Translations under genes and position numbers: made by a program
Part shown: positions 22,001 through 59,331 of the stretch, in pieces
Position numbering within the stretch: position 1 is the stretch's first letter
How the letters are laid out: each line of letters starts with the position of its first letter
Origin: Halichondria panicea
Lineage: Eukaryota; Porifera; Demospongiae; Suberitida; Halichondriidae
DNA: 64,000 bases
NCBI RefSeq assembly: GCF_963675165.1
Contig: NC_087379.1
Location: 186,001 to 250,000 of the forward strand
Direction of reading: 5' to 3'
Notes under the pieces: model-generated
Seen by the model: only the letters and a program-made list of their open reading frames with translations
The model's database searches: none
Told to the model about the DNA's origin: nothing

Positions 22001-24203
22001 CTAGGAAAATATTTGCACTCTATTGTTGCCACTATCAGACACATACACCACACCACACTGGTCTACTGCTATGCCATAAGGATCGTCGAACTGTCCTGGT
22101 CCAGATCCATACGATCCAAACAACTTGAGAAACACTCCCTCACACGTGAACACTGAGACACGATTGTTCCCCCGCTCCCCCACATACACCAGATCATCAC
22201 TGTCCACACAGATGCTGGCAGGGAAGGTAAGTTCTCCATTTCCACCGCCTTTCTTCCCAAACTTCCTCAGATAGCCACCATCGGGTGTGAAGACTTGCAC
22301 TCGATGATTATAATAATCAACCACATACACACAACCACTACGATCGGATGCAACGTCCCAGGGATAGTTAAACTGTCCATTACCACTGCCATAGCTGCCG
22401 AACTTGCTGGAGAATGTGAGGTCAGAGTTGAAGATATGAACACAGTAAGCACCAAAATCAACCACATACACCTTCCCATTGACACTGTTGACACAAACAC
22501 CAATCGGATTGTTAAACTGTCTAGGACCATTGCCATGACTACCAACTGCTGTTATCAGGTCTCCTCCACGTGAGAACTTCAACAGTCGAGGATAACCATT
22601 GTCCACCACCAGAATATTGTCATCACCGTCCACTGCAACACCACAAGGACCATTCATCTCCCCAACAGCTGTGCCTCGAGTGTCTAATGTTCGCAGCTTG
22701 TCTCCTGTGGGGCTAAATATCGAGACAATACCAGCAACCTGTTCAGCCACAATTATCTCCCCAGCTTGGTTGAGTGCCACTCCACAAGGTCTTGAGATCA
22801 TTGATAGTCTTGATAACAGTTCCTAGTTTATCGATCGGAGTCTTGACTGCCACAGGGAATGGACTTCCTGCCACCTCCTCTCCACCCACTCTCACGATCA
22901 GCTCGCTGGCCCCGCCCACTGTCAGCTGGTAGGAGATCTCGTACTCTCCCTTCCCTCGTTCCTTCACAACACATTTTGTGGCTTTGTAAGTTATTTTCGA
23001 GATAAGTTTGGCTTCTGGCGGTGCTGAATTTTTGGGAGAGAGAAATCGACAATGTGCAGTTACTTTTTGATGAGCGATCGCTTTTTGAGGAATATTAACA
23101 CAACACAAGGCACCGAATTGTTTGCAATCTTTGACTAGCTGAGCAGAAGGCATAAAACAGGTGTTGGTTGTCTCACGAGGCTCTAGGGTGTTGGGGTCAA
23201 AGGTGTCCACCAGCTCTCTCACTTGCTTCACCACACCTTGCTTCATCTTGAGCACGTCTCCTGGAGACCCGGTACGAACGCTCTCCCTCACGAAATGCAG
23301 GCAGCTGCTACGTTGGGTTTGGAGGATCTCCACCTCCTCTCGCTGAGCAGAGAGGCTCTTGAGCTGTTGTTGGGTGTGGCCTTCCAACTCGGCCATAAGC
23401 TCCCCCTCACGAGCATCAAGAGCTCGGCGAATCTCATCAAATTTTGAGTGGATATTGGTCGCAAGTTTTCCTCCGTGTTCAATAATTTCGGCATGTCGTC
23501 CATCCAGATTGACGAGAGCTGTGTCGGTGGCCTCTAGCTGTTTCTCAACGGGTCCCAGGGAGTCCAGGATCTCTTTCTTGTGGCTCTCAAAGGTGTCGGC
23601 AATCACACAGTACTTGTGGTCTTTGTGTATATGAATGATGCAATCTCGGCAAATCAACTCCCCACAAGGTTCGCAATAAAGTTTCATTTTCTCGTCGTGT
23701 TTAGGGCAGAGAGGGGATACCTTCTTTGGGGAGACCAAGCGAATCAAATCTCCCTCCACTTTTTCGAGAGTAACGACTTCGTGATTCTTGAGCTCGTCCC
23801 ATTCTTTGTGCATATCGGTACACTTCTCGCAGATGAACTTGGTGCATTGTCGGCAAAAGCTGGTGGCTTTACGATTGGTAACAGAACACTTCTCACAGGC
23901 CAATTTCTGAGGCTCTTTCACCTTCTTGAGTGTTTCCTGGATGTCAAAGAGATGGTGTACATTGAAGGCAGCCTGGAGGCCACTCACACCAGTGGGGGGT
24001 AGGGGGGTGGGCCGGCGACACTTGGGGCATTCCAGCTGGCCTTGTCGATTGTGGGCAACTATATCCTCGAGACAATGTTGACAGTAGACGTGGAAACAGG
24101 AGAGCAGTCGAGGGTTGGTGTAGGGCTCCAGACAGACTAGGCATGACAGCTGGTCCTCCACTTTGGAGAGAGCTTCTTGAGCAGCACTCGGCCTCTCAGC
24201 CAT
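22001..24203 (-). pseudogene. TRIM-filamin-NHL protein, copy 1 (2-nt frameshift)
   Basis: First frame (from ATG at 24203): RING (CLVCLEPY ... CPKCRR), two B-boxes (CEKCSVTNRKATSFC and CPKHDEKMKLYCEPCGELIC), coiled coil, and filamin-type Ig repeat (GEYEISYQLTVGG ... AGSPFPVAVK). The second frame (22001 to about 22790) carries six NHL repeats. Near 22785-22795 two bases are missing relative to copy 4 (CCACAAGGTCTTGAG against CCAAAAGGTTTCTTGAG), separating the propeller. Intact family members are E3 ubiquitin ligases or RNA-binding regulators of the TRIM2/3/71 type. As read, a RING/B-box/coiled-coil/filamin protein without NHL would be made. A sequencing error cannot be excluded, since both halves are otherwise clean. 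A variant polyadenylation signal (ATTAAA) lies at 21983-21988. Confidence 0.9.
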
Positions 24204-24213
24204 TGACACAAAA

Positions 24214-24347
24214 CTGAGGGGGGAGAGAAAAGGATAACAACAGGCTAAAAAGGGGGCGTGTCAAGCTTTATAATAATAATAGCAAAGAATTCAAGCAACG
24301 AAAACTACAAACGAATGTATCAGAACATGTACAATAATTATGCTCAC
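24214..24347 (-). other. 5'-UTR intron of TRIM copy 1
   Basis: A donor CTAAAG/GTGAGC and an acceptor CCCCCCTCAG/TTTTGT, 10 nt before the ATG, are conserved at all four TRIM copies (also 35025-35158, 46717-46850, 59342-59475). A short non-coding first exon is inferred upstream. Confidence 0.55.
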
Positions 24348-25239
24348 CTTTAGAAAAGTGTTTAGTAGTAGAAAGAAAAGCTCAAAGCTTGGCAAAAGCA
24401 GCTATAGACTCACAGCTCTCACAGTGACAGGTCAGGTGATGCATGCACAACAATATTCATAGGATCAAAGTATTGATTATGGTTAGACCATAATGGTACA
24501 CACATACTTGTGGCTATATTGCCTAGCAACATTCTACACCCACTCTATTGCTAGCCCTCTGACCAGTTGCCTGAGATACAGACAACACACACTCATACAA
24601 TGTCACCCTCCATGTTAACAACACTCCATACCATGTTGAAATTGATCTCACATTATGCACCCAATGCACACACACACAAGATCACAAAATGTATTCAAAT
24701 TCATCATAATACAAAATCAGCATACATACATACATACATACATACGGATGATAATCTCTATGTGTATAATTATGTTAGAACACTCTTAATTGGGTCCATG
24801 AGATGCATGGTTGAGTGGACTCCATTGCCCCACCCACTCACACCACCGGCCTTCTCTTGTGGTCGGGATATTTACGTATCAAAACTTTTCGTGCTAATGA
24901 CAATAATCCAGTGTTGAAGGAATGAGCAATATATACAAGCTCAACAACGCACCAGGAGATACCCAGCGAGACAGAGACGAAACAATCAACACTAGGCAAT
25001 TATTTCCAAATGCTCATTGTCCATCACAACCCAATGCCCATACAAGCAGCCTGAGACCACTTGTGTACAAGGAACAAACATCATTATTGAGAATACACAC
25101 ATTGATTAAGAGTTGGTGCAACTGAAACCCAGCCTTCAAAAGAAGCTCTAAAACTGTCAGACAGTGGACTAGTGGACCTGCTAGACCCAACCCAATCACT
25201 TAGACCAATCTACACACACGCAGTTTCCAAACTGAACAT
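24348..25239. other. Conserved upstream region of TRIM copy 1
   Basis: No gene. About 250 bp next to the putative first exon is nearly identical at the four TRIM copies and is the likely promoter (inference). A (CATA)n tract occurs at 24722-24746. Confidence 0.5.
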
Positions 25240-25440
25240 AACACCCACCAAAAGAGAACAACCTGAACAATCCCTTACAGATACACCATAATTATATCTA
25301 CAGACGAATGACATTTTAACCGAAATCGAATTATGTAATAACTTACAACTGTACACTCAAGTGTATTCACGAATGCCCACTTTAGAAGCGTACATTGACC
25401 AAACAAAACCAGAATTGGATGAGAAACTAGTCTAGTCTAG
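25240..25440 (+). mobile_element. Penelope-like 5' fragment, boundary of units 1 and 2
   Basis: Encodes TQVYSRMPTLEAYIDQTK-like sequence, which is continued at 60480-61027 by reverse-transcriptase motifs. Here it is truncated at GAGAAACTAG and joined to unit-boundary sequence. Confidence 0.55.
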
Positions 25441-25847
25441 CTCTTTCTAAGCTTTAAGCAAATAATTAACATTGGATCAACGGTACTAAAGTTATGGCTG
25501 TTTAAATGTGTTTAACTACCCCTCCCCTCAAGAAGAGTACGTTAGATCTTTAATGGTTACTAAAGCACACTAACTACAAACAAAAGGATTATATGTACTA
25601 GCCTCGTTCACCGGCCTACCCTGGGATCCAGGCTATAATTATATGTACATGACATAATTATGTACAGTACATGACCTTGCAGTATTGACCCTAAACACAC
25701 ACCTGGGTACATACTGTCAAGGAGGTCATGATGAACACACACTAACCTGAGGAGATAGGTTCTCCCTGGAGAGTACGGAGGGCAGGTACTGGTTGGAGGA
25801 GGCCGTGAGAACAGCTGCACCAGACACACCTCCCAGTCTCACACACA

Positions 25848-26331
25848 CTAGAGCTGCACAACAGACACACCAGGATGGAGCACGCCCAGTTTCCCGATTA
25901 CCTTCCCACGTACACACACCTCTGCACAACGGCCCGGGAAATAGGTACAGTGTGTGTGCAGGGGAGGGGGCGGTAAACACAAGCAGTGCAGAAGTGTGGG
26001 CAGTGAGCAAGTGTAGTTGTAGGAATTAATTTTCTGACAAAATAATCTTCCCAACACATACACTTCAAAAAACCTCAAGGCCATTTATTCCCAACAAACT
26101 GGACTGAATGCATATACAGTAGTTCCTTCACAAGTCCCTAACACACATACACAGCTGTGCTTATGCAACCCTCACCTTCAGCTGCCTTGAGGAAGTATCC
26201 ACTGCCATCTTTGATGAAGGACACCTCCAGCAGTTACATGACACGGTCCAGTAGTCCATGGATCACTTCAAACCCGGGGGTACGACTATAATACACTGCA
26301 CACAACCGACGATGGTTCCGTGTTCCCACAT
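25848..26331 (-). pseudogene. FARSB: FARSB-like 3' exons, unit 2
   Basis: As in unit 1, but the in-frame stop at the conserved glutamine is TAA (26234-26236) rather than TAG. The last exon reads YFPGRCAEVCVRGKVIGKLG, closer to the family consensus (P in PGRC) than unit 1. Confidence 0.85.
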
Positions 26332-26933
26332 CTACAGCATAGGACACACAAATTAGTGAGCTTTGGCACTGCGAGCAATTAGCGGTTTTAAGACACTTTA
26401 ATTGTATACAATAGTGCTTTCTCAGAGCTACAGAATGTGTCTTTGAGTTTGTTAAATAGGACGTTCCTAACACAAGTTATGGCCTCTAAAAGATAGCTCT
26501 AAAAACAAACCTGATTTTTCAACAGCCATTACTTTAATACTGTTGATCCAATGTCAAAAATGTTATGATTTTCTGAAAGCTTAGAAAGAGACCTTTCAAA
26601 TGATGTGTTTCGATCCAAAATTTTGTTGGGGCCATAATTTGTAATTTTTCCGCCTTGGACCATGGGCTATTATTCATGGTATGGCCAAATTGGCAAATAC
26701 TTTTATCTCTCAAATATAAACTTTGATGACACCATTTGAAAGGTCTCTTTCTAAGCTTTCAGAAAATCAGAAAATCATTGAAATTGTATCCACGGAATTC
26801 AAGTTATGGCAGCTAAAAGATAGCTCTGAAAACAGGCCTGATTCTGAAAAAACACCCACACCTTTCCCTAGAAAACAGAAGATTAAATAATGTCAGCACT
26901 TCCGTCTCACAAAAACTGCTTACCTTGCAAACA

Positions 26934-29345: not shown

Positions 29346-29575
29346 CTAAGACTCAGAGTCCAATTGTTTGATGTGGTGTAGCACAGTGTCCATGGAGGGT
29401 CTGTCCTGAGGGGAGTGAGAGACACAGGAGGTGATGAGTGGGTGGAGCTCCCTCCATACACCTTCCATACTCAATAGCAGACCAAGAAATACAGCAGCTT
29501 CAGGATATCTGGCATTCACCACTTCACAAGCAAGCACTCCAAAACTGTACACATCATCTTTGTCCATGCACGAGA
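29346..29575 (-). pseudogene. Terminal kinase exon, unit 2
   Basis: Open frame: DVYSFGVLACEVVNARYPEA, then QDRPSMDTVLHHIKQLDSES. The upstream CAATTTCCTGAACC intron tract is shared by all copies. The spacer 29576-30332 matches 3400-4155. Confidence 0.8.
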
Positions 29576-30332
29576 CTGTGGGGGGAGGGAAAATTGGTTC
29601 AGGAAATTGCTGATATAAACATAAATAACACAATCTACAATTAAATAGACAGTAGTGTACAACACAGGAATAGGGACAGTACTATCCAATGAGAGGTTAA
29701 TGGATTGTGAATGACACTGTACAAGCTTGATTGCGTTGTAACTATAAATGGGAAATTGCATGACCAATCTATTGAGCGAATTTCGCAATTCGTAATTGAA
29801 AAGTCGCTGTATTTTAAACCCGATAATAATTATTATAGTACCAGGAGTTCATGCACTCCTGATGTAGTACAAAATGGGATCATCATAATTATACACGTAT
29901 AATAATTATTATTACAAGCCATGTACAAGACTATGTAGCTGGTACCCTACACAGGTTTAGAATTTAATATCGCATGCATGCAGGCTGCTATTCCGTGAAA
30001 ATTAAATCCGCGAAAACCTTTCAACGGTCATTCTACGAAAGTTTATACCCTACCCGCTATACGGTATACAGTACACACTGACAGTGGTGTGCCCGGAATA
30101 TCTTAATTTTTCAAACCTCCATCTCATAAATGATCCTAGTAAACTATAGGCCTTATTCTGTGGGCACATCTCTGAGTACAAGGGTCAGAGAATAACGAGC
30201 AAATTAGGTACACAAATAAATTCTAGAGAATGGATTACAAATTTCCCAGCAAACCTAGTGATGGATGACTATCAACACACCCACTACTTAACTGTAACTG
30301 TTTCCACATTAACCCCTTTGAAACGTACGTAC

Positions 30333-32770: not shown

Positions 32771-35014
32771 CTAGGATAATATTTGCACTCTATTGTTGCC
32801 ATAATCAGACACATACACCACACCACACTGGTCTACTGCTATGCCATTAGGACCGTTGAACTGTCCTGGTCCAGATCCATACGATCCAAACGACTTGAGA
32901 AACACTCCCTCACACGTGAACACTGAGACACGATTGTTCTCACTCTCCCCCACATACACCAGATCATCACTGTCCACACAGATGCTGGCAGGGCGGTTAA
33001 GTTCTCCATTTCCACTGCCTTTCTTCCCAAACTGCCTCAGATAGCCACCATCGGGTGTGAAGACTTGCACTCGATGATTATAATAATCAGCCACATACAC
33101 ACAACCACTACGATCAGATGCAACGTCATAGGGATAGTTAAACTGTCCATTACCAATGCCTTTACTACCGAACTTGCTGGAGAATGTGAGGTCAGAGTTG
33201 AAGATGTGAACACAGTTAGCACCATAATCAACCACATACACCTTCCCATTGACACTGTTGACACAAACACCAAAATGATTGTTTAACTGTCCAGGACCAT
33301 CGCCATGACTACCAACTGCTGCTATCAGGTCTCCTCCACGTGAGAATTTCAACAGTCGATGATTACCACGATCCACCACCAGAATATTGTCATCACCGTC
33401 CACTGCCACACCTTGAGGATTCTTCATCTCCCCAACAGCTGTGCCTCGAGTGTCTAATGTTCGCAGCTTGTCTCCTGTGGGGTTAAATATCGAGACAATA
33501 CCAGCACCCTGTTCAGCCACAATTATCTCCCCAGGTTGGTTGAGTGCCACTCCATCAGGCCTAGGTGACTTGAGATCACCGATAGTCTTGATAACAGTTC
33601 CTAGTTTATCGATCGGACTCTTGACTGCCACAGGGAATGGACTTCCTGCCACCTCCTCTCCACCCACTCTCACGATCAGCTCGCTGGCCCCGCCCACTGT
33701 CGGCTGGTAGGAGATCTCGTACTCTCCCTTCCCTCGTTCCTTCACAATACATTGTGTTATCTGATTCGTTGATTTTGATATAAGTTCGGCTTTAATGGTT
33801 GAGGACGGAATTTGGATCAGCTGATGTTTTATGTTTGAAGTTTGAAGACTGGCAACTACTTGCACTCTGGTCTTGTCGGGTCTTTTTGTAGGGGTAACAG
33901 TTACTGATGGTATGCCAATGGCTCCAAATTCTTTGCACTCTTTGACTAGCTGAGCAGAAGGCACAAAACAGGTGTTGGTTGTCTCACGAGGCTCTAGGGT
34001 GTTGGGGTCAAAGGTGTCCACCAGCTCTCTCACTTGCTTCACCACACCTTGCTTCATCTTGAGCACGTCTCCTGGAGACCCGGTACGAATGCTCTCCCTC
34101 ACGAAATGCAGGCAGCTGCTACGTTGGGTTTGGAGGATCTCCACCTCCTCTCGCTGAGCAGAGAGGCTCTTGAGCTGTTGTTGGGTGTGGCCTTCCAACT
34201 CCGCCATAAGCTCCCCCTCACGAGCATACAGAGCTTGATGGATTTCATCAAATTTCGAGTGGATATTGGTCGCAATTTTTCTTCCATGTTCAATAATTTC
34301 AGCATGTCGTCCATCCAGATTAACGAGAGCTGTGTCGGTGGCCTCTAGCTGTTTCTCAACGGGTCCCAGGGAGTCCAGGATCTCTTTCTTGTGGCTCTCA
34401 AAGGTGTCGGCAATCACACAGTACTTGTGGTCTTTGTGTATATGAACAAGGCAATCTCGGCAAATTAACTCCCCACAAGGTTCGCAATAAAGTTTCATTT
34501 TCTCGTCGTGTTTAGGGCAGCTAGGGGACGTCTTCTTTGGGGAGACCAAGCGAATCAAATCTCCCTCCACTTTTTCGAGAGTAACGATTTCGTGACCTTC
34601 GAACTCCTCGTATTCTTTATGTATGCTCGTACACAGGTCGCAGATGAACTTGGTGCATTGTCGGCAAAAGCTGGTGGCTTTACGAGTCGTTTTGGAGCAT
34701 TTCTCACAGGCTAATTTCTGAGGTTCTTTCACCTTCTTGAGTGTTTCCTGGATGTCAAAGAGATGGTGTACATTGAAGGCAGCCTGGAGGCCACTCACAC
34801 CAGTGGGGGGTAGGGGGGTGGGCCGGCGACACTTGGGGCATTCCAGCTGGCCTTGTCGATTGTGGGCAACTATATCCTCGAGACAATGCTGACAGTAGAC
34901 GTGGAAACAGGAGAGCAGTCGAGGGTTGGTGTAGGGCTCCAGACAGACTAGGCATGACAGCTGGTCCTCCACTTTGGAGAGAGCTTCTTGAGCAGCACTT
35001 GGCCTCTCAGCCAT
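32771..35014 (-). CDS. TRIM-filamin-NHL protein, copy 2 (intact, 747 aa)
   Basis: Single uninterrupted coding exon. The ATG at 35014 is chosen because the two codons before it begin with GTG and lie just after the UTR acceptor. Approximate domains: RING 21-62 (CLVCLEPY, CFHVYCQHC, CPKCRR); B-box 1 103-143; B-box 2 166-204 (CPKHDEKMKLYCEPCGELIC); coiled coil 208-330; filamin-type Ig 375-465; six NHL blades 483-747. This is the TRIM2/TRIM3/TRIM71 layout, known for E3 ubiquitin ligase activity and propeller-mediated RNA or protein binding in the cytoplasm. The linker before the filamin domain (about 362-420) is strongly diverged from copies 1, 3 and 4. Target unknown. Confidence 0.92.
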   Translation of the reverse strand: MAERPSAAQEALSKVEDQLSCLVCLEPYTNPRLLSCFHVYCQHCLEDIVAHNRQGQLECPKCRRPTPLPPTGVSGLQAAFNVHHLFDIQETLKKVKEPQKLACEKCSKTTRKATSFCRQCTKFICDLCTSIHKEYEEFEGHEIVTLEKVEGDLIRLVSPKKTSPSCPKHDEKMKLYCEPCGELICRDCLVHIHKDHKYCVIADTFESHKKEILDSLGPVEKQLEATDTALVNLDGRHAEIIEHGRKIATNIHSKFDEIHQALYAREGELMAELEGHTQQQLKSLSAQREEVEILQTQRSSCLHFVRESIRTGSPGDVLKMKQGVVKQVRELVDTFDPNTLEPRETTNTCFVPSAQLVKECKEFGAIGIPSVTVTPTKRPDKTRVQVVASLQTSNIKHQLIQIPSSTIKAELISKSTNQITQCIVKERGKGEYEISYQPTVGGASELIVRVGGEEVAGSPFPVAVKSPIDKLGTVIKTIGDLKSPRPDGVALNQPGEIIVAEQGAGIVSIFNPTGDKLRTLDTRGTAVGEMKNPQGVAVDGDDNILVVDRGNHRLLKFSRGGDLIAAVGSHGDGPGQLNNHFGVCVNSVNGKVYVVDYGANCVHIFNSDLTFSSKFGSKGIGNGQFNYPYDVASDRSGCVYVADYYNHRVQVFTPDGGYLRQFGKKGSGNGELNRPASICVDSDDLVYVGESENNRVSVFTCEGVFLKSFGSYGSGPGQFNGPNGIAVDQCGVVYVSDYGNNRVQILS

Positions 35015-35024
35015 TGACACAAAA

Positions 35025-35530
35025 CTGAGGGGGGAAAGAAAAGGATAACAATAGGCTAAAAAGGGGGCGTGTCAAGCTTTATAATAATAATAGCAAAGAA
35101 TTCAAGCAACGAAAACTACAAACGAATGTATCAGAACGTGTACAATAATTATGCTCACCTTTAGAAAAGTGTTTAGTAGTAGAAAGAAAAGCTCAAAGCT
35201 TGGCAAAAGCAGCTATAGACTCACAGCTCTCACAGTGACAGGTCAGGTGATGCATGCACAACAATATTCATAGGATCAAAGTATTGATTATGGTTAGACC
35301 ATAATGGTACACACATACTTGTGGCTATATTGCCTAGCAACATTCTACACCCACTCTATTGCTAGCCCTCTGACCAGTTGCCTGAGATACAGACAACACA
35401 CACTCATACAATGTCACCCTCCATGTTAACAACACTCCATACCATGTTGAAATTGATCTCACATCATGCACCCAATGCACACACACAAGATCACAAAATG
35501 TATTCAAATTCATTATAATACAAAATCAGC
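35025..35530. other. TRIM copy 2 UTR intron and conserved upstream region
   Basis: UTR intron 35025-35158 with conserved splice sites, then sequence nearly identical to that upstream of copy 1. The (CATA)n tract is contracted here and joined to CAACACTAGGC. Confidence 0.5.
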
Positions 35531-42826: not shown

Positions 42827-44215
42827 CTAATACTTGGTAACACTTTTCCACGGCTTTTCCTTCCTCCACAGCACAATCTCCTGCTGCAGGGGGAGGAGGG
42901 TTTATATTATACACAACAGTATACGCACTGCAATCGTAATTATAATTCCCTATCGTTAAAACGATTGAATCACTGCATGGTACTTACACATGCACAAACG
43001 TATTTATGTACCGTAGAAACTGGATTATTATAGCGCATGCGCTTTTGGGGTCAATAGCAGAGCTCTATACGCTTATAATCGAGAATGCGCCTATAATGCA
43101 GTCATTTCGAGCCCCACCCAGCAACCGGATGTCTCTGTGATGAGTGCTGACTCGCAAGCTGGCTAGAAAGTGAGCAAGCAAGGAAAGCAGGCAACCCTAA
43201 CTGGATCTATATCATACTATTATGTTACAGTTCAGTTCATTTACATCATTGAAATTCATATTATAAAAACAAAAACATTCATATTGACCAGGAACTTGGA
43301 ATAAAAGGACCTCATCCATGTCTCACATTCTCTTAGCATTCGGACAAGGTAACAGCATGCCCAGAGAGTCCTTCCAGATGGATATCACCAGCTATATAGC
43401 TATCATGCACTGTACAAGCTAACTAGCTCATTAGATGAATCAATTTTAAAATTTCACTAATAACCGTCGCATAATTGGAAAAGCGCTTCAATTTGAGTAT
43501 AAAAAGCCTGCAGTTGAGCATGCGCTTAAAATAAAGATACGCTTATGGTCGAGTAAGCGCTAATAATCCAGTTTCTACGGTAGCTTACCTACACATTCTT
43601 TCGTACTAAATAGAACGAGATAATATTATAACTCCAGTTAGCAATAGAACGTAGAGTACTAGTAGCAGTTTCCATGAAGGCTGCTATCATATAAAGATCA
43701 GTTGTACAGTCATGTAGTATTGATTTAAGGCCGCGTTACAGTTTTTTTTCTTTCTAATTACATGTATACTTATAGCGCCAGCCAGCAAAAAAAATATTTC
43801 CAGAAAGGAATACTTGGCGCTCAATTGGAGTAAATAAAAATTATTTTGTGGAGTTGGTCGCTTCTATTAGAGTGGTGCTGTAATTAGAAGATGGTACACA
43901 TTGTTTCATGTACACTAGCTACACCACACTCCACCGTTACCAATGGATACTCCCCTAGCAACCCCCTAGCAACACAACACCCCCTCACCTGGTATTTGAA
44001 GTATCTCCTCTCCTCCTCATCCACCAACACGAGGTTGAGGTAGTAGCGGACACTGAACTTCTTGTTAATGTCCCTCATAGTGGGAGTGAGGTTATAGCCT
44101 GCCAGGAACAGACGGATGGGGATGGATGGGGATGGACCCCCCCCCTCACTGGAGCACCATCCGGCTATGATCTCATATTTGGCCACCTGCTCATTCTCAG
44201 TGTAGATATTAGGAG
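42827..44215 (-). pseudogene. VPS26: VPS26 retromer subunit, last two exons
   Basis: Exon 43989-44215 reads NEQVAKYEII, then IPIRLFLAGYNLTPTMRDIN and KKFSVRYYLNLVLVDEEERR, YFKYQ. Exon 42827-42883 reads QEIVLWRKEKPWKSVTKY and a stop. This is the C-terminal arrestin-like lobe of VPS26, the cargo-recognition subunit of endosomal retromer. Around GWCSSEGGGPS two compensating indels replace the usual DGAPVRGES-like loop, beside a G9 run. The tail after LWRK is much shorter than in VPS26A/B. No upstream exons are present. It sits only in unit 3, between NUP210 exons D and G. Confidence 0.88.
43009..43582. mobile_element. TA-flanked TIR element in VPS26 intron
   Basis: Inverted ends CCGTAGAAACTGGATTATTA flanked by TA on both sides, about 570 bp, no transposase. 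Subterminal GCGCATGCGC and GCGCTTATG motifs. Layout of a non-autonomous Tc1/mariner element. Confidence 0.75.
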
Positions 44216-44425
44216 CTGTGTGTGTGTGTGTGGGGGGGGGGGGGTAGGAGCTGTGTGTGTGTGGGGGGGTATGAGCTGTGTGTGTGTGTGTGTGGGGGGG
44301 GGGGGGTAGGAGCTGTGTGTGTGTGTGGGGGGGGGTAGGAGCTGTGTGTGTGTGGGGGGGGTATGAGCTGTGTGTGTGTGTGGGGGGGGGGTAGGAGCTG
44401 TGTGTGTGTGTGTATGTGGGGGGCA
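44216..44425. repeat. TG/poly-G minisatellite at VPS26 exon acceptor
   Basis: Six to seven units of TAGGAGC or TATGAGC, (TG)n and G6-G12. It directly abuts the exon acceptor. Successive G runs could form quadruplexes on the + strand. Confidence 0.9.
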
Positions 44426-44814
44426 GTTAAACCTGACAACAATCAATGAATTATTCAGTGCTAGAAAACTGACATTTTCAACGCACAATTGTACTTATAA
44501 GCTTGACAACAGACGCGAGATCACTCAAAGCAACTATAGAGTCCATCAACACGTACACTATATTGCAATACTCTGCACAGGAACTGTAGACAATTATGTA
44601 ATTACGATAACTACAGTGCAGCAAGTGTACCTGAATATTGTGATTGTTGGTCTGAGTCAATAGAGGGCAGTCTGGCATATGACCAATCACTGGTCGTATC
44701 GTCATGGAAACAGGCTCGAAACAAGAGATTCTGCAAGGACAAATGTAGCTCTAGCAAGGAGACAATTATCAGGAGCATGCACGTGGTGTGGCTGTACGTG
44801 CCTGGCTATAATTG
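44426..44814. other. Sequence upstream of VPS26 fragment
   Basis: Unique in the window. No gene is recognised. It ends where NUP210 exon G resumes at ATTGGTCAGCTCC. Confidence 0.5.
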
Positions 44815-45074
44815 GTCAGCTCCAATGAATACTGCTCTGATGTCATGGTGATGACCTCTGACCTCTCATGCTTCCGTCTCTCCACCAGATACTCGACAAA
44901 AAACAGTGGCAGAATGTACACATCCATGGAGGGTTGTAGCATCATGTTCTCAATGACTAGTAGCTTAATGATATCAGGCTCCACCCCCTGCCACGCCCTC
45001 TCCCTCAGACAAACCTTGACCTTGGTAATACCGCTGTTGACGCCCGCCACCTGCACGATATCACCATGGACACC
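44815..45074 (-). pseudogene. NUP210: NUP210 exon G, unit 3 (open frame)
   Basis: The best preserved G exon: TKVKVCLRERAWQGVEPDII, KLLVIENMMLQPSMDVYILP, and EVITMTSEQYSLELTN. It keeps the tryptophan that is TGA elsewhere and has no frameshift. The 3' end and donor are lost at the VPS26 junction. Confidence 0.85.
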
Positions 45075-45233
45075 CTGCAGCGGAGGGGTGGGGTGGGGTG
45101 AGGTACGATACTAAAGGTACGACTATAAAACAGGAGAGACTCAGTACACACGTATACAGGGACAGCATGGGCAAAGAATTCACTGGTTTCAATTTCAATA
45201 TTCATTACCAATGTTACAATAACTCAACAAAAT

Positions 45234-46706
45234 TTAATTAACAAAAATAAACTTTTGCACTCTATTGTTCCAAACATCAGACACATACACCATACCACAC
45301 TGGTCTACTACTATGCCATAAGGACTGCTGAACTGTCCTGGTCTAGATCCCTCTGATCCAAATGACTTGAGAAACACTCCCTCACACGTGAACACTGAGA
45401 CACGATGGCTCCCATTCTCCCCCACATACACGAGATCATTACTGTCCACGCAGATGCTGATAGGGGAGTTAAGTTCTCCATTTCCACTGCCACTCTTCCC
45501 AAACTGCCTCAGATAGCCACCATCGGGTGTAAAGACTTTCACTCGATGATGATAACAATCAGCCACATACACACAACCACTATGATCGAATGCAACGTCC
45601 CAGGGAGAGTTAAACTGTCCATTACCATTGCCTTCACTGCCGAGCTTGCTCGAGAAGGTGAGGTCAGAGTTAAAGATGTGAACACAGTGAGCACCATAAT
45701 CAACCACATACACCTTCCCATTGACACTATTGACACAAACACCCATCGGATCGTTAAACTGTCCTGGACCATCGCCATGACTACCAATTGCTGCTATCAG
45801 GTCTCCTTCACGTGAGAACTTCAACAGTCGATGATTACCACCTTCCACCACCAGAATATTGTCATCACCGTCCACTGCCACACCTTGAGGATTCTTCATC
45901 GCTGTGCCTCGAGTGTCTAATGTTCGCAGCTTGTCTCCTGTGGGGCTAAATATCGAGACAATACCAGCATCTCCTTCAGCCACAATTATCTCCCCAGCTT
46001 GGTTGAGTGCCACTCCATACGGTTTATTGAGATCATTGATAACAGTTCCTAGTTTATCGATCAGAGCCACAGGGAATGGACTTCCTACCACCTCCTCTCC
46101 ACCCACTCTCACGATCAGCTCGCTGCCTCCGCCCACTGTTGGCTGGTAGGAGATCTCGATCTCGTACTCTCCCTTCTCTCGTTCCTTCACAACACATTTT
46201 GTGGCTTTGTTAGTTATTTTGGAAATAAGTTTGGCTTCTGGCGGTGCTGAATTTAGGGGACAGATGAATCGATAATATGCAGTTACTTTTTGTTCAGTGA
46301 TAGCTTTGCGAGGAATATCAGCATAATACACGATACCGAATTTCTTGCAATCTTTGACTAGCTGAGCAGAAGGCACAAAACAGGTGTTGGTTGTCTCACG
46401 AGGCTCTAGGGTGTTGGGGTCAAAGCTGCGTTGGGTTTGGAGGATCTCCACCTCCTTTCGCTGAGCAGAGAGGCTTTTGACCTGTTGTTTGGTGTGGCCT
46501 TCCAACTTGGCCATAAGCTCCCCCTCACGAGCATACAGAGCTTGATGGAGTTCATCGAACTTCGAGTGGATATTGATCGCAAGTTTTTCTCCGTGTTCAA
46601 CAATTTCGGCATGTCGTCGATCCAGATTGATAACAGCTGTGTCGGTGGCCTCTAGCAGGCCACTCACACCAGTGGGGGGTAGGGCAGCACTCGGCCTCTC
46701 AGCCAT
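45234..46706 (-). CDS. TRIM-derived filamin-NHL protein, copy 3 (no RING or B-box, 490 aa)
   Basis: One open frame from ATG at 46706. After MAERPSAA it jumps to LPPTGVSGL (RING deleted), then to LEATDTAVINLD (B-boxes deleted), then from LQTQRS to FDPNTLEP (part of the coiled coil deleted). Smaller in-frame changes include PVALIDKLG (four residues lost), GTAMKNP (three lost) and EYEIEIS (two gained). The filamin repeat and six NHL blades remain, ending NNRVQKFIFVN. Every indel keeps the frame. Such a protein would lack ubiquitin ligase activity but could still dimerise and bind targets, for example as a competitor (inference). UTR intron 46717-46850 is conserved. Confidence 0.85.
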   Translation of the reverse strand: MAERPSAALPPTGVSGLLEATDTAVINLDRRHAEIVEHGEKLAINIHSKFDELHQALYAREGELMAKLEGHTKQQVKSLSAQRKEVEILQTQRSFDPNTLEPRETTNTCFVPSAQLVKDCKKFGIVYYADIPRKAITEQKVTAYYRFICPLNSAPPEAKLISKITNKATKCVVKEREKGEYEIEISYQPTVGGGSELIVRVGGEEVVGSPFPVALIDKLGTVINDLNKPYGVALNQAGEIIVAEGDAGIVSIFSPTGDKLRTLDTRGTAMKNPQGVAVDGDDNILVVEGGNHRLLKFSREGDLIAAIGSHGDGPGQFNDPMGVCVNSVNGKVYVVDYGAHCVHIFNSDLTFSSKLGSEGNGNGQFNSPWDVAFDHSGCVYVADCYHHRVKVFTPDGGYLRQFGKSGSGNGELNSPISICVDSNDLVYVGENGSHRVSVFTCEGVFLKSFGSEGSRPGQFSSPYGIVVDQCGMVYVSDVWNNRVQKFIFVN

Positions 46707-46850
46707 TGACACAAAACTGAGGGGGGAGAGAAAAGGATAACAATAGGCTCAAAAGGGAGCGTGTCAAGCTTTATAATAATAATGGCAAAGAATTCAAGCA
46801 ACGAAAACTACAAACGAATGTATCAGAACATGTACAATAATTATGCTCAC

Positions 46851-51669: not shown

Positions 51670-52725
51670 ATGCCTCGGTGCGCATGCGCAAGCGAGGTAT
51701 ACGGTAGTGTGTTTGTGTGTCTGTGTGTGTGTCTGTGTGTGTGTGTAGACTGCTACAGCTGCTCAAGGATGAATCAAGTGCAAGTAAGAGTTTCTATAGG
51801 CTTCTAGTCATGTTTACTTGGATTTTAATTCGTGGATTTGCAAAATAATGCTTCGTTCTCGAGTTATGCCTAGTTTTGCTTACTTGGAATGCCATTGCAG
51901 CCTTTTCAGAAGAGCACGTAGCCAAACTTGTTTACCGAGTGTTGCTACTCTACTTAGTCGTTAGCTCTGCACTAGAACGCTAGCTATTGGTAGCTGCAAG
52001 AGTGAGAAGAGAGCTGCAAGGCTCTGCTAATGCAGCCATTAATTTTAGACTTGAACTTTTGGCATCGATCGTTTTTAACAACAATCATGGTCGATCATTA
52101 CCCAATCTCTGAGTTTTTGCATGCAGCAAAATTAATTAAATTGTTTATCATGTGCATAAAAGCTGCTTTATGTTATGTAGCTTTGGCATCTCCACCGAGG
52201 CATCAGCACCCGTGGTGCTTTCATTATAGCTAGCTTTTATACACACATTGATTGATTTATAATTATCATGACGAATAATTTTGCTGCATGCGGGAAACTC
52301 AAATAGTGGGTAATGATCGACCATGATTATTGTTAAAAACGATCGATGCCAAAAGTTTAAGTCTAAAATTATGGCAAGTCAGCAGGTCAGCAGAGCCTTG
52401 CAGCTCTCTTCTCACTCTTGCAGGTACCAATAGCTAGCGTTCTAGTGCAGAGCTAACTACTAAGTAGAGTAGCAACACTCGATGAACAAATTTTGCTACG
52501 GACTCTTCTGAAAAGACTGCAATGGCATTCCAAGTAAGCAAAACTAGGCATAACTCGAGAACGAAGCTTTATTTTGCAAATCCAACCATTGCAAGCCGAG
52601 AAAACATGACTAGAAGCCTATAGAAACTCTTACTTGCACTTCATTGATCCTTGAGCAGCTGAAATAGTCTACACACACAGACACACTACCGTATACCTCG
52701 CTTGCGCATGCGCACCGAGGCATAA
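51670..52725. mobile_element. Large foldback element, copy 3
   Basis: Two-arm structure as in copy 1. Ends TGCCTCGGTGCGCATGCGCA and its inverse. Confidence 0.75.
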
Positions 52726-52730
52726 CAAAC

Positions 52731-53601: not shown

Positions 53602-53771
53602 CAAGAGAAGCAACCTTGAGGGGAGCTCAGAGTGAAGTTGACCTTGACTCCAGTGCTGGAGGGGACATAGGGAAGTAAAACCACCTGTACCTTCAGCTTC
53701 CCCAGAGAGTTGGCTTTATGAAGGGAGCAGACGAGTGTGAGGACCGTGGCTGCTATCAAGGCTGCCTTCAT
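53602..53771 (-). pseudogene. NUP210: NUP210 exon 1, unit 4 (open frame)
   Basis: ATG intact: MKAALIAATVLTLVCSLHKA, LKVQVVLLPYVPS, FTLSSPQGCFSW. With unit 1, one of only two copies with a clean signal-peptide exon. Confidence 0.85.
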
Positions 53772-53939
53772 CTTGCATGATATCTAGTACAGTTTTCAGT
53801 GAGTCCACATGGCTTTCTGATCTCTGACCCCATATGCAACACCCCCTCATCTTGAGCAGCCCCTCCCCCACTTTGTTTGCAGAATAAGCTAACAAAATTT
53901 CATTACACAAATTAATAATAACACACTCATGCACCAATG

Positions 53940-54167
53940 CTAAGACTCAGAGTTCAATTGTTTGATGTGGTGTAGCACAGTGTCCATGGAGGGTCTGTCC
54001 TGAGGGGAGTGAGAGACACAGGAGGTGATGAGTGGGTGGAGCTCCCGCCATACACCTTCCATACTCGAGCAGACCAAGAAATACAGCAGCTTCAGGAAAT
54101 CTGGCATTCACCACTTCACAAGCAAGCACTCCAAAACTGTACACATCATCTTTGTCCATGCACGAGA
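53940..54167 (-). pseudogene. Terminal kinase exon, unit 4 (frameshifted)
   Basis: Two bases missing at CATACTCGAGCAGACC shift the frame after FLGLL. The spacer is shortened: a deletion at about 54429 removes the roughly 50-bp repeat region present elsewhere. Confidence 0.75.
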
Positions 54168-54632
54168 CTGTGGGGGGAGAAAAAATAGGTTCAGGAAATT
54201 GCTCACATAAACATAAATAACACAATCTACAATTAAATAGAGAGTAGTGTACAACACAGGAATAGGGACAGTACTATCCAATGAGAGGTTAATGGATTGT
54301 GAATGACACTGTACAAGCTTGATTGCGTTGTAACTATAAATGGGAAATTGCATGACCAATCTATTGAGCGAATTTCACAATTCGTAATTGAAAAGTCGCT
54401 GTATTTTAAACCCGATAATAATTATTATAGTGATCCTAGTAAACTATAGGCCTTATTCTGTGGGCACATCTCTGAGTACAAAGGTCAGAGAATAACGAGC
54501 AAATTAGGTACACAAATAAATTCTAGAGAATGGATTACAAATTTCCCAGCAAACCTAGTGATGGATGACTATCAACACACCCACTACTTAACTGTAACTG
54601 TTTCCACATTAACCCCTTTGAAACGTACGTAC

Positions 54633-54763
54633 CTTCCTCGTAAAAATCTTGCACACTGAAACGTTCGGCTCCTCCCCCAACAGCAGCTCCCTCGTACGAG
54701 TTGTGATCTCAATACTCTCAATTGAGGCTACAAATACGTCACAACGCAGTGTCTGCCCCGTGG
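54633..54763 (-). pseudogene. NUP210: NUP210 exon 3, unit 4
   Basis: Open 131-nt exon with two private changes (VCKIFTRK for VCRLFTRK, and IESIE for IERIE). Confidence 0.85.
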
Positions 54764-54783
54764 CTGCGTGTGTGTGTGGGGTG

Positions 54784-54822
<39 letters not shown>

Positions 54823-55019
54823 TGTGTGTGGATGTGATAAAGTTGTGGCCGTTCAACAACCCTATCAGTTTAATCAATGGTCCGAGGACTGCATGTTTAC
54901 GTTGCCAAAACTTGAATTCAGTGGATCATAATTATTTCAACAATTTTCTGATTTTATGTAAGCTTAGAAAGAGACCTCAAAGTTCATTACTTCCGAAAAA
55001 CAACAAATTCTGGCTGCAA

Positions 55020-55080
55020 CAAAAGTGACAGGCTCTGGGAAAAAAATTTAATTTTAATTTAAAATTAAATTTTAGAGATC
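55020..55080. repeat. AT-rich palindrome insertion, unit 4
   Basis: TTTAATTTTAATTTAAAATT and inverse, about 45 bp, absent from the same place in other units. Confidence 0.6.
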
Positions 55081-55317
55081 GAAAAACATAATTTGAAAGG
55101 TCTCTTTCTAAGCTTTCCGAAAAAAGTATCGTGAGAGTTTTGACATTAGATCAACGGAACTAAAGTTATGGCTATTGAAAGATGTTCAACTATCCCTCCC
55201 CTGCATGCTAAGTCATCAATTTCGGCCATTTATTGCTAAACAGGAGATTAGAATGGAGTGTGCGTGGGAGTTGTATAATCCTCTTTATGAGCTCCTAGCA
55301 ATACATATTGCATAATG

Positions 55318-55879
55318 TACGGTACCTCCGTTTATCAAAGTGAGTCGTGTTTTTGGTATCCATGGCTATCACTAGGGACTTCCCCTTGGTCCTAGTGGTG
55401 AGCAATCCCCTCCACCTCACAAGACCATTCAGTCACCTGATATAAAAAAATCTGAATTATACAACTGTCTATGCAAATGTTCGTATGAACTGTTCTTATA
55501 TGCACTTTGTACTCTAAATATTGGTACAGCTCAGGATAGTGATGTTGAACCTATAGCGGTAGAGCAGTTTTCATTTTTGTATGATGCTCTACAATACGAA
55601 AAATACAAACATTTCTACCTCACGTAAATTACTCGCTATACGGTAATTATTATTACAAGCCATGTACAAGCCTATGTAGCTGGTACCCTACACAGGTTTA
55701 GCTCTCAACAAGCTAGCTAGCACACTCACATTCAATTGGTGCTGGTATTTGAACTCTGTTTGGGGGTCCCAGAGAATGACGAGGTGTTTGGGGGTCACTT
55801 GCACTGGGTCGTTGATCTCCACCACCTGGTGCTTGGTTATGAGGGTCGGGAGGTCATGAACCTCACCAGTGTCTGGGTG
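55318..55879 (-). pseudogene. NUP210: NUP210 exons D and F, unit 4
   Basis: Exon D is complete at 55730-55879. Exon F at about 55325-55438 reads KGKSLVIAMDTKN with the donor-proximal base lost. Confidence 0.75.
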
Positions 55880-56046
55880 CTGCAAACAGTCAAGTAACTC
55901 AATGACATTATCAGGAATAATCAGAGCCGTGGGTTATAGTGAGGGCGCCCTTGTTTAGAGGGTGATTGAAGAGCAGTATTTCATTAGACGTCAGTTCTGG
56001 TGGATTGCGAAGGAGGAGAGAAAGAAAGAAATTGACACTCAGGGAG

Positions 56047-56100
<54 letters not shown>

Positions 56101-56660
56101 ATAAGTACAGTATGGTGTGCAGTATAATAAAGAATTACATGTACTGTGTACTAGTATACACGTTGCATGCAGTCAACACAATTCCACCAACCTTATGATA
56201 CTGGGATACCAGACTACATTATGTTCTGGTGGTTCAATTTCAATGGTTTTATGGTTTTATGAAATAGCACAATCAACCCCCCCCACATTATGAGCAACAA
56301 AATGTCAGAAAAAGACCAGGACTGTAGTCCATGGTATTTAGCTGAAATCTGGCTATAATTATGATCAATTTTAAGCATACCAAATGAATGAGCTCCATTT
56401 AACTTAAAAAAAGCTCCCATAACTTTCAGAAAATTGAAATCAGACTACCGAAATTCAAGTTACAGGTTCTCAAAGTGGTACAGCCACCACTGTACACATG
56501 TAACTCTTATAGGAAGTTCTATCAAAGTAATGGTATGCTAAAATCAGTGGCAAAAGTTGTCCCCCTCAACAACACACTTACTATCTGAGTCCTTGTGTTG
56601 TAGTGAGGAGGTCTGGGGGGTGCATGGGTAGAGCATTCTGATTGGACGATCACCACGTAC

Positions 56661-56973
56661 ATTGAAGTTCCAGTCCGGTGACCCTTGACCTCTGTGAGTG
56701 GAGTCTCCCCACTGTCGTATTGGTCAGCTCCAATGAATACTGCTCTGATGGCATGGTGATGACTTCTAACCTCCCATACTTCCATCTCTCCACCCGAACT
56801 CGACAAAGGACAGTGGAAGAATGTACACATCCATGAAGGGTTGTAGAATCATGTTCTCAATGACTAGTAGCTTGATGATATCAGGCTCCACCCCCTGTCA
56901 CGCCCTCTCCCTCAGACGGACCTTGACCTTGGCCGTACCAGTTTTGACGCCCACCACCAGCACCATGGAGACC
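56661..56973 (-). pseudogene. NUP210: NUP210 exon G, unit 4
   Basis: Same TGA and frameshift as unit 1''. Full length with the GTACGT donor. Confidence 0.8.
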
Positions 56974-57126
56974 CTGCAGCGGAGGGGATACTAAAGGTAC
57001 GACTATAACAGGAGAGACTCAGTACACACGTACACAGAGACAGCATGGGCAAAGAATTCACTGGTTTCAATTTCAATATTCATTAGCAATGTTACAATAA
57101 CTCAACAATTTAATAACAAAAATAAA

Positions 57127-59331
57127 CTAGGAAAATATTTGCACTCTATTGTTGCTATAATCAGACACATACACCACACCACGCTGGTCTACTGCTATGC
57201 CATAAGGACCATCGAACTGTCCTGGTCCAGATCCCTGTGATCCAAACGACTTGAGAAACACTCCCTCACACGTGAACACTGAGACACGATCGTTCCCAGT
57301 CTCCCCCACATACACCAGATCATCACTGTCCACACAGATGCTGGCAGGGCAGTTAAGTTCTCCATTTCCACTGCCTTCCTTCCCAAACTGCCTCAGATAG
57401 CCACCATCGGGTGTGAAGACTTGCACTCGATAATTATAATAATCAACCACATACACACAACCACTACGATCGGATGCAACGCCAAAGGGAGAGTTAAACT
57501 GTCCATTACCCCTGCCTATACTACCGAACTTGCTGGAGAATGTGAGGTCAGAGTTGAAGATGTGAAGACAGTGCGCACCGTTATCAACCACATACACCTT
57601 CCCATTGACACTGTTGACACACACACCAAAAGGATAGTTAAACTGTCCAGGACCATCGCCACGACTACCAACTGCTGCTATCAGGTCTCCTCCACGTGAG
57701 AACTTCAACAGTCGATGATTACCATGATCCACCACCAGAATATTGTCATCACCGTCCACTGCCACAACACAAGGATACTTCATCTCCCCAACAGCTGTGC
57801 CTCGAGTGTCTAATGTTCGCAGCTTGTCTCCTGTGGGGCTAAATATCGAGACAATACCAGCATCGTGTTCAGCCACAATTATCTCCCCAGCTTGGTTGAG
57901 TGCCACTCCAAAAGGTTTCTTGAGATCATTGATAGTCTTGATAACAGTTCCTAGTTTATCGATCGGAGTCTTGACTGCCACAGGGAATGGACTTCCTGCC
58001 ACCTCCTCTCCACCCACTCTCACGATCAGCTCGCTGGCCCCGCCCACTGTCAGCTGGTAGGAGATCTCGTACTCTCCCTTCCCTCGTTCCTTCACAACAC
58101 ATTTTGTGGCTTTGTCAGTTATTTTCGAGATAAGTTTGGCTTCTGGTGGTGCTGAATTTTTGGGGGAGAGGAATCGACAATATGCAGTTACTTTTTGATC
58201 AGCGATTGCTTTTTGAGGAATATTAACACAACACAAGGCACCGTATTTCTTGCAATCTTTGACTAGCTGAGCAGAAGGCACAAAACAGGTGTTGGTTGTC
58301 TCACGAGGCTCTAGGGTGTTGGGGTCAAAGGTGTCCACCAGCTCTCTCACTTGCTTCACCACACCTTGCTTCATCTTGAGCACGTCTCCTGGAGACCCGG
58401 TACGAATGCTCTCCCTTACGAAATGCAGGCAGCTGCTACGTTGGGTTTGGAGGATCTCCACCTCCTCTCGCTGAGCAGAGAGGCTCTTGAGCTGTTGTTG
58501 GGTGTGGCCTTCCAACTCGGCCATAAGCTCCCCCTCACGAGCATCAACAGCTCGACGAATCTCATCAAATTTCGAGTGGATATTGGTCGCAATTTTTCCT
58601 CCGTGTTCAACAATTTCAGCATGTCGTCCATCCAGATTGACGAGAGCTGTGTCAGTGGCCTCTAGCTGTTTCTCGATGGGTCCCAGGGAGTCCAAGATCT
58701 CTTTCTTGTGGCTCTCAAAGGTGTCGGCAATCACACAGTACTTGTGGTCTTTGTGTATTTGGACGGTGCAATGGATACAGATCAACTCCCCACAAGGTTC
58801 ACAAAAAAGTTTCATATTTTCGTCATGTTTGGGGCAGCGAGGGGACGTCTTCTTTGGGGAAACCAAGCGAATCAAATCCCCCTCCACTTTTTCGATAGTA
58901 ACCACTTCGTGACCTTCGAACTCCTCCCATTCTTTGTGCATATCGGTACACTTCTCGCAGATGAACTTGGTGCATTGTCGGCAAAAGCTGGTGGCTTTAC
59001 GAGTCGTTTTCACACATTTCTCACAGGCCAATTTCTGAGGCTCTTTCACCTTCTTGAGTGTTTCTTGGATGTCAAAGAGATGGTGTATATTGAAGGCAGC
59101 CTGGAGGCCACTCACACCAGTGGGGGGTAGGGGGGTGGGCCGGCGACACTTGGGGCATTCCAGCTGGCCTTGTCGATTGTGGGCAACTATATCCTCGAGA
59201 CAATGTTGACAGTAGACGTGGAAACAGGAGAGCAGTCGAGGGTTGGTGTAGGGCTCCAGACAGACTAGGCATGACAGCTGGTCCTCCACTTTGGAGAGAG
59301 CTTCTTGAGCAGCACTCGGCCTCTCAGCCAT
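57127..59331 (-). CDS. TRIM-filamin-NHL protein, copy 4 (intact, 734 aa)
   Basis: Intact single exon with ATG at 59331 and UTR intron 59342-59475. Approximate domains: RING 21-62; B-box 1 103-143 (CVKTTRKATSFCRQC); B-box 2 166-204, altered to LFCEPCGELICIHC; coiled coil 208-330; filamin repeat about 365-452; six NHL blades to NNRVQIFS. The RING zinc ligands are all visible. It is closest to copy 1 through the coiled coil and filamin linker (KAIADQKVTAYCRFLSPKN) but has its own set of NHL loop residues. Expected to be a cytoplasmic E3 ligase or RNA/protein-binding regulator. Ligand not predictable from sequence. Confidence 0.92.
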   Translation of the reverse strand: MAERPSAAQEALSKVEDQLSCLVCLEPYTNPRLLSCFHVYCQHCLEDIVAHNRQGQLECPKCRRPTPLPPTGVSGLQAAFNIHHLFDIQETLKKVKEPQKLACEKCVKTTRKATSFCRQCTKFICEKCTDMHKEWEEFEGHEVVTIEKVEGDLIRLVSPKKTSPRCPKHDENMKLFCEPCGELICIHCTVQIHKDHKYCVIADTFESHKKEILDSLGPIEKQLEATDTALVNLDGRHAEIVEHGGKIATNIHSKFDEIRRAVDAREGELMAELEGHTQQQLKSLSAQREEVEILQTQRSSCLHFVRESIRTGSPGDVLKMKQGVVKQVRELVDTFDPNTLEPRETTNTCFVPSAQLVKDCKKYGALCCVNIPQKAIADQKVTAYCRFLSPKNSAPPEAKLISKITDKATKCVVKERGKGEYEISYQLTVGGASELIVRVGGEEVAGSPFPVAVKTPIDKLGTVIKTINDLKKPFGVALNQAGEIIVAEHDAGIVSIFSPTGDKLRTLDTRGTAVGEMKYPCVVAVDGDDNILVVDHGNHRLLKFSRGGDLIAAVGSRGDGPGQFNYPFGVCVNSVNGKVYVVDNGAHCLHIFNSDLTFSSKFGSIGRGNGQFNSPFGVASDRSGCVYVVDYYNYRVQVFTPDGGYLRQFGKEGSGNGELNCPASICVDSDDLVYVGETGNDRVSVFTCEGVFLKSFGSQGSGPGQFDGPYGIAVDQRGVVYVSDYSNNRVQIFS

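Follow-up and report, generated by a model that had tools for sequence, protein, structure and literature searches.

A diversified propeller face in tandem arrays of predicted TRIM-NHL ubiquitin ligase genes of the sponge Halichondria panicea: a probable germline repertoire

Four single-exon copies of a TRIM-NHL gene, all on the minus strand and two of them full-length and open, lie in a 64,000-nucleotide stretch of the genome of the sponge Halichondria panicea (RefSeq assembly GCF_963675165.1, 131 Mb in 39 contigs; contig NC_087379.1, positions 186,001 to 250,000, or G000:C3:186001-250000 in our numbering), which is referred to here as the window. These genes probably belong to a germline-diversified repertoire of E3 ubiquitin ligases, in which the propeller framework and the part for catalysis and assembly stay nearly constant and one face of the NHL propeller is under strong diversifying selection. 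The relevant open reading frames (ORFs) and domains, in window coordinates and with lengths in amino acids (aa), are as follows.

22001..22822, minus strand: NHL propeller ORF of copy 1 (L033), 273 aa, from the ORF list and the NHL alignment, in a different frame from the remainder of the gene
22743..24260, minus strand: RING, B-box, coiled-coil-region and filamin-like part of copy 1, 505 aa ORF, matching P0001 residues 1-502
32771..35071, minus strand: copy 2 (L009, protein P0001), intact single-exon TRIM-NHL ORF of 766 aa with RING, two B-boxes, filamin and NHL (ORF, Pfam)
32774..33616, minus strand: NHL domain of copy 2, input to AlphaFold (mean predicted local distance difference test 93.0, predicted template modelling score 0.92)
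45234..46748, minus strand: copy 3 (L036), open frame of 504 aa lacking RING and B-boxes, with partial coiled-coil region, filamin-like part and NHL (ORF, protein match, Pfam)
57127..59388, minus strand: copy 4 (L020), intact single-exon TRIM-NHL ORF of 753 aa (ORF, protein match)
57130..57966, minus strand: NHL domain of copy 4 (NHL alignment)

The Pfam matches of P0001 all exceed their cut-offs (zf-RING_UBOX, 7.5e-8; zf-B_box, 9.8e-14 over two stretches; Filamin, 1.8e-6; NHL, 1.4e-37), and residues 223-385, between the B-boxes and filamin, are called the coiled-coil region by position only. By this architecture, which includes a six-bladed NHL propeller, the genes are assigned to the TRIM-NHL (class VII) family of E3 ligases, with ubiquitin ligase activity predicted. 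Relative to the NHL domain of copy 2, those of the other three window copies are 87, 82 and 84% identical. The frame of copy 1 (22001-24260) is broken near 22790, the filamin-like part of copy 3 scores under the Pfam cut-off, and the first ATG of copy 4 (MAERP) begins at base 59331, as counted by hand from the ORF list.

The window copies are members of a larger family, here family 1, which has at least 34 copies; of these, 33 lie on contig C3 and the remaining one is on C8. The protein search gave 24 full-length-type matches at 76-100% identity, plus partial ones, and the set of 34 includes five partial copies from an NHL search; L034 and L035 are two pieces of one place. Twenty-three of the 34 are full-length and open, and these were used for domain and cassette counts. 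Three copies have stops in the NHL reading (L010, L038 and L040) and were left out of the selection set of 31, and in eight copies (L036-L043) the frame of the NHL reading lacks a RING. L041, which is nearly identical to L039, was additionally left out of the conversion rerun, the segment trees, the face composition and the third-base counts. Two further arrays are found in the same genome. Family 2 occupies at least 34 places that are 81% or more identical to P0002, of which 33 lie on C3 and the other on C9, and three have an internal stop. Family 3 occupies at least 61 places on C11, 54 without a stop within the match; all these place counts are lower bounds, and a place need not be a whole gene. 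Both arrays consist mostly of long single open frames of about 720-790 codons, and by our tally the open copies over all three arrays come to about a hundred. The family 2 alignment holds 27 distinct copies of 28 fetched from the 34 places (L067 and L073 were fetched and excluded as more distant), and that of family 3 holds 16 of 20 fetched from the 61, four near-identical ones having been dropped. On C11 a pair of genes about 4.1 kb apart occurs five times (945229-950489, 1034592-1039851, 1102294-1107543, 1193187-1198482 and 1240596-1245800); the first genes (L087-L091) are nearly identical to one another, and each second gene, considered singly, has one or two stops. Judged by this arrangement, the pairs appear to be a recent segmental amplification in family 3.

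In the alignment of the 34 family 1 copies the NHL framework is almost invariant. Hypervariable sites, defined by an entropy of at least 1.2 bits over 265 NHL sites, number 34 among the 31 copies without stops. A reading of the window from its letters alone (the sequence-only reading) had proposed that variation clusters at recurring positions of each blade, namely the residues flanking the proline of the F-N-x-P-x motif (P-1, P+1), those following the aspartate turn (D+1, D+2) and the third residue of G-S/K-x-G. The residue strings quoted in that reading are all found in the ORFs at their correct coordinates, and of the 23 sites at which the four window copies show at least three different residues, 18 belong to its position classes. 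The clustering holds in the 26 family 1 copies outside the window, in which 25 of 28 sites of these classes are hypervariable, versus 9 of 237 others (odds ratio 211). More hypervariable positions lie beyond these classes at D+4 and P-2, and with them included, both having been added after the data were seen, 32 of the 34 sites are covered. The face residue sets so formed number 30 distinct ones among 31 copies, and the median difference between two copies is 25 of the 34 sites.

On the AlphaFold model of the copy 2 NHL domain, divided by its strand limits, 33 of the 34 hypervariable sites lie on the top face and none of the 56 bottom-loop sites is hypervariable. The scatter over both faces that would have spoken against a diversified surface is not seen on this predicted structure, in which the variable face comprises the d-a loops with the start of strand a, plus the b-c loops, of six blades. 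Ten RNA-contact residues are described for LIN41 (PMC5908797); eight of the ten map to hypervariable columns here, and the ten matching columns have a median entropy of 2.37 versus 0.26.

Substitution at these sites was assessed in two ways. A FUBAR-like test, which is a grid codon model in which a site passes at a posterior of at least 0.9 that the nonsynonymous rate (beta) exceeds the synonymous rate (alpha), was passed by 34 of 265 sites in family 1; in three null simulations on the family 1 tree no site of the 265 passed. With separate trees for three segments, 41 sites pass, 31 of which are shared with the single-tree result. For a non-circular count of the proportions of nonsynonymous (pN) and synonymous (pS) differences, sites were those picked as hypervariable in the other family. 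Family 1 then has pN 0.347 and pS 0.179, a ratio of 1.94 (1.33-2.94) versus 0.67 elsewhere, and family 3 has pN 0.324 and pS 0.233, versus 0.043 and 0.080 elsewhere. Substitutions are not as frequent at synonymous and framework sites as at the loops; equal frequencies would have spoken against the sequence-only reading. In the full-length family 1 copies the RING is constrained, with beta/alpha of 0.24/0.53. These data bear on the alternative that the loops drift through relaxed constraint, redundancy or pseudogene decay. Although the NHL reading is interrupted by stops in three of the 34 copies, the frame of one is broken and eight lack the RING in the NHL frame, the 23 full-length open copies with their constrained RING, the conserved bottom loops, and top-loop rates that are above the silent level rather than at it make decay extremely improbable.

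The same surface recurs in the other arrays. Family 2 is about 39% identical overall to family 1, and its variable columns are largely the same (Spearman 0.49 over 255 columns, versus at most 0.27 in 245 circular shifts), with an odds ratio of 49 for shared hypervariable columns (20-54 over six threshold pairs). Sixteen family 2 sites pass the selection test, nine in common with family 1; 13 are on the top face and three in strands. In family 3 the Spearman correlation is 0.38 versus at most 0.23, and the odds ratio is 40 (28 at a lower threshold). Thirty-one sites pass there, 17 in common with family 1; of the 31, 25 are on the top face and one is in a bottom loop. Given the 16 copies and a null simulated only for family 1, there may be false ones among them. 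By this evidence three arrays in one genome have diversified the same face, either independently or by continuing an older habit.

Outside the propeller the family 1 genes are mosaics. Cassette types, assigned by short signature motifs, comprise three for B-box1, six for B-box2 and three for filamin, in 19 combinations among the 23 full-length copies. Four-fold distances are stepped along the gene, from 0.254 in the B-boxes through 0.138 in filamin and 0.082 in the coiled-coil region to 0.047 in the N-terminus plus RING, a gradation to be expected from the reshuffling of old cassettes within otherwise homogenised genes. The array had been described as young from the window alone; this stands for the framework, with four-fold divergence of 0.047 in the N-terminus plus RING and 0.070 in NHL, and fails for the far more diverged B-box cassettes. 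The latter, at P0001 residues 122-222, form a stretch of few types and high silent divergence (four-fold p 0.254) within otherwise young genes. In an initial run-length test for gene conversion the near-identical pair L039/L041 masked everything else, and nothing came of it; without L041 the sum of squared runs tops all 2000 permutations, a sum that site-rate variation may inflate. An unbroken tract that spans residues 667-757 and contains 11 hypervariable sites is common to the neighbours L019 and L021, which differ elsewhere. Shortened open copies are of two kinds, RING-less filamin/NHL copies (L036, L037) and propeller-only copies (L039, L041, L042, L043), and it is possible that they act as decoys. 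All six have a similar leader ahead of the first ATG.

Several observations weigh against selection and reshuffling as described above. The FUBAR-like test is our own code and not HyPhy, its null simulations were made on the family 1 tree only, and recombination violates its single-tree assumption. The family 2 counting ratio of 1.08 (0.76-1.57) is not above 1, compared with 0.40 elsewhere, and some of the family 3 passing sites are framework positions in strands. Path-counted pS is itself raised about twofold to threefold at hypervariable sites (0.179 versus 0.088 in family 1, 0.287 versus 0.154 in family 2, 0.233 versus 0.080 in family 3), and mean alpha in the FUBAR-like model is 1.58 there versus 0.66. 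The distance matrices of different segments still correlate (rho 0.11-0.49; Mantel p < 0.05 in six of ten comparisons), so that linkage is not wholly lost and reshuffling is incomplete, and the maximum-z conversion threshold within NHL is passed by one pair of 435, L019/L021. The data as a whole are one assembly, its sequence and a predicted model. In the third-base comparison given below, pairs that share bases 1 and 2 are closer relatives, and deeper ancestry or some mutational excess may remain.

The raised pS leads to the alternative of targeted hypermutation, in which a base- or loop-specific mutator, comparable to a diversity-generating retroelement or a deaminase, acts on loop codons with little selection on the protein. 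In pairs of the 23 full-length copies, the frequency of difference at hypervariable codons is 50% for position 1, 43% for position 2 and 23% for position 3, compared with 7% at NHL four-fold sites, so that the first two positions vary far more than the third, a pattern that resembles the NNC/NNT codons of diversity-generating retroelements; the commonest base at hypervariable positions is A (858 of 2036, from base counts only). Yet in no single copy does A fill more than half of these positions (maximum 0.50), and the conserved prolines standing between hypervariable codons are mostly encoded in a single way (at five sites, in 27-30 of 29-30 copies), with Pro599 as the exception (three codons, in 17, 8 and 2 of 30). 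Among pairs that share bases 1 and 2, silent third-base differences occur at 0.053 in hypervariable and 0.065 in other codons, a ratio of 0.82 (bootstrap 0.41-1.38), whereas residue-changing third-base differences in two-fold boxes are sevenfold commoner at hypervariable codons (0.144 versus 0.021). The pair counts in two-fold boxes are 256 silent to 275 changing at sites chosen from family 2, versus 1705 to 736 elsewhere. Family 2 behaves alike in two-fold boxes, with silent differences of 0.067 versus 0.081 and residue-changing ones of 0.148 versus 0.039, and these comparisons suggest that the raised path-counted pS stems from multi-step codons. A count by prefix groups, in which 28 of 235 groups have a silent and 29 a residue-changing difference (five both), does not discriminate alone. 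Since silent change is not raised at hypervariable codons, targeted hypermutation is very unlikely, a judgement made from codon and base comparisons, with no search aimed at the template repeat or reverse transcriptase that a diversity-generating retroelement would have beside changes confined to template adenines.

Hypermutation of whole regions was also considered, and the comparison of near and far synonymous change lends it no support. For framework codons (entropy < 0.7, 208 sites, with 23 middle-entropy sites excluded), synonymous change is 0.089 within two codons of a hypervariable site and 0.078 further off, a difference equalled or exceeded in 1459 of 5000 permutations; by distance it is 0.103 at 1, 0.072 at 2, 0.087 at 3-4, 0.076 at 5-8 and 0.067 beyond. 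This similarity of near and far codons counts against a loop-targeted mutator as well. We conclude that selection at the protein level is the main cause of the loop variation.

The window contains other features besides the TRIM-NHL genes, the first of which is a repeated unit.

18634..20636, no strand assigned: conserved block of a tandem unit with six occurrences in the window, from about 3.3, 10.7, 18.6, 29.5, 40.0 and 54.1 kb

In units 1 and 2 no TRIM-NHL gene is detectable by tblastn of the window at E 1e-3. A kinase-like fragment (PF07714) recurs with the tandem units, including these two (3169-3504, 10527-10862, 18506-18841, 29346-29681 and 53947-54273); in the one copy scanned (3172-3504) the match, at E 2.5e-4, is under the curated cut-off. 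Beside the RING-less copy 3, on the minus strand, the stretches 43887-44426 and 44772-45110 match Vps26 (E 1.8e-20) and NUP210 Ig-like sequence (E 4.8e-12), and they are probably exons or fragments swept up in duplications. Three inverted repeats (8262-9208, 15578-16414 and 51731-52686), with arms of 186-298 nucleotides that are 91-95% complementary and spaced by about 350-360 nucleotides, look like a foldback mobile element.

How such a repertoire may have arisen and what it may do can be set out as a progression. Tandem duplication would supply new copies; recombination would reshuffle the older B-box1, B-box2 and filamin cassettes and would have passed a block of blades between neighbours at least once; and selection would drive the face residues apart between copies while the RING, the linkers and most of the coiled-coil region are held nearly constant. 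Each ligase would then bind a ligand of its own at the face and either ubiquitylate it or signal through it, the most likely mechanism being a set of ligases that each recruit a different target via the face and tag it with ubiquitin. The sequence-only reading of a diversified recognition surface is supported by the substitution pattern and by the face, and the recognition or immune function that it proposed is suggested by that pattern. One alternative is that these are sequence-specific RNA-binding regulators of the Brat or LIN41 type, diversified against many RNAs, for example those of transposons or viruses, rather than against proteins. The columns that match the LIN41 contacts are variable and not basic, with a net charge of -2 to +3 here versus +7 in LIN41, and a conserved basic RNA-binding pocket, as a TRIM71/LIN41 orthologue would have, was not found in them. 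The 34-site face carries -4 to +8 and is rich in Tyr (15%) and Asn (13%), with Gly, Ser, His, Arg and Asp; relative to the framework, His is enriched 9-fold and Trp at least 27-fold (framework Trp frequency floored at 0.1%). In our judgement the enrichment of Trp, Tyr, His and Asn resembles protein-binding loops, and composition and scattered charge together are closer to those of protein-binding loops in general than to those of a basic RNA pocket. Because the face is not basic as that of LIN41 is, its ligands are more likely proteins than generic RNA, and the RNA alternative, though credible, seems unlikely.

We infer that most of the ligands are proteins or peptides and that selection comes from non-self, whether pathogens or other individuals, which would give these genes an immune or self/non-self role. 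Action of NHL-type TRIMs on pathogens has precedents in TRIM32 and influenza PB1 (PMC4461266), in TRIM56 and Zika (PMC6623546), and in a Salmonella effector and a host ligase (PMC10989757). The ligase that faces the Salmonella effector is probably TRIM32. The face might instead tell self from non-self tissue; allorecognition is what the closest mechanistic parallel, the fungal HET-D/HET-E WD40 propellers, performs (PMC1805685). The domain architecture, which is that expected of an intracellular ligase, and the many copies, rather than few highly polymorphic loci, render this role in place of anti-microbial recognition distinctly unlikely. More speculatively, and tentatively at best, this animal without antibodies could possess a germline repertoire of about a hundred open cytosolic propeller receptors fused to a ubiquitin ligase, with an antibody-like hypervariable face on a fixed scaffold and an effector that marks the target for destruction, to which the assortment of B-box, filamin and blade cassettes would add combinatorial variety and in which RING-less and propeller-only copies would serve as decoys or regulators. 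The repertoire is a concrete candidate, open to testing, for recognition inside the cells of an animal in which adaptive immunity is probably absent. The 74 copies aligned from the three arrays offer naturally occurring variants of closely related scaffolds with which ligand choice by the NHL propeller can be mapped.

The new element is the diversified NHL face; the TRIM-NHL architecture itself was already known. NHL-type TRIMs are assigned to group 1 of the TRIM family, and they are regarded as a slow, conserved branch, so that a hypervariable NHL face under diversifying selection is unexpected. The conservation of group 1 is described with the TRIM family groups (PMC2533329), and in LIN41 orthologues most RNA-contact residues are identical (PMC5908797). 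Unlike TRIM71/LIN41, Brat, Thin and TRIM2/TRIM3, the genes described here form large single-exon arrays in which the columns of the LIN41 contacts are among the most variable. In the titles and abstract openings searched, with most subscription papers outside the search, no report of such a selection pattern in TRIM-NHL genes was found. Merulinid corals show lineage-specific expansion of NHL-repeat and B-box orthogroups (PMC11639872); the likeness is in the expansion, and an analysis of selection and of the face is given here and is absent from the available part of the coral account (PMC11639872).

Expanded TRIM genes with a positively selected recognition domain are familiar from the finTRIM genes of fish. 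Primate TRIM5, a TRIM-B30.2 gene whose alpha form has a SPRY domain under positive selection (PMC2533329), offers the same likeness; the recognition domain in both is B30.2/SPRY, whereas the C terminus here is an NHL propeller, with no SPRY among the Pfam matches of P0001, and membership of those groups is not indicated. The closest likeness in working principle is with the NACHT-WD40 (NWD) receptors of the fungus Podospora, including HET-D and HET-E, in which the selected codons form two pairs per WD40 repeat, 7 and 9 in its d-a loop and 25 and 27 in its b-c turn, with a conserved site between the members of each pair (PMC1805685). There, as here, top-face codons diversify at equivalent places of each blade, in the fungus with concerted evolution of the framework (PMC1805685), and the P-flanking and VD-xx-N-x-R positions of the sponge genes are geometrically the counterparts of the d-a and b-c pairs. 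Positive selection at equivalent top-face positions of each blade is found in the sponge with the FUBAR-like code and the predicted model, and the working principle looks, by analogy, the same. The Pfam matches of P0001 include neither NACHT nor WD40, and the sponge genes are not NWD members: the propeller is NHL rather than WD40 and the effector a RING ligase rather than a NACHT receptor, and NWD diversity is among near-identical repeats within and between genes, whereas the six blades here differ in framework and the diversity is among paralogues. If this interpretation is correct, diversified d-a and b-c loops on the top face of a propeller are the solution of the fungal WD40 receptors, reached in another propeller with another effector.

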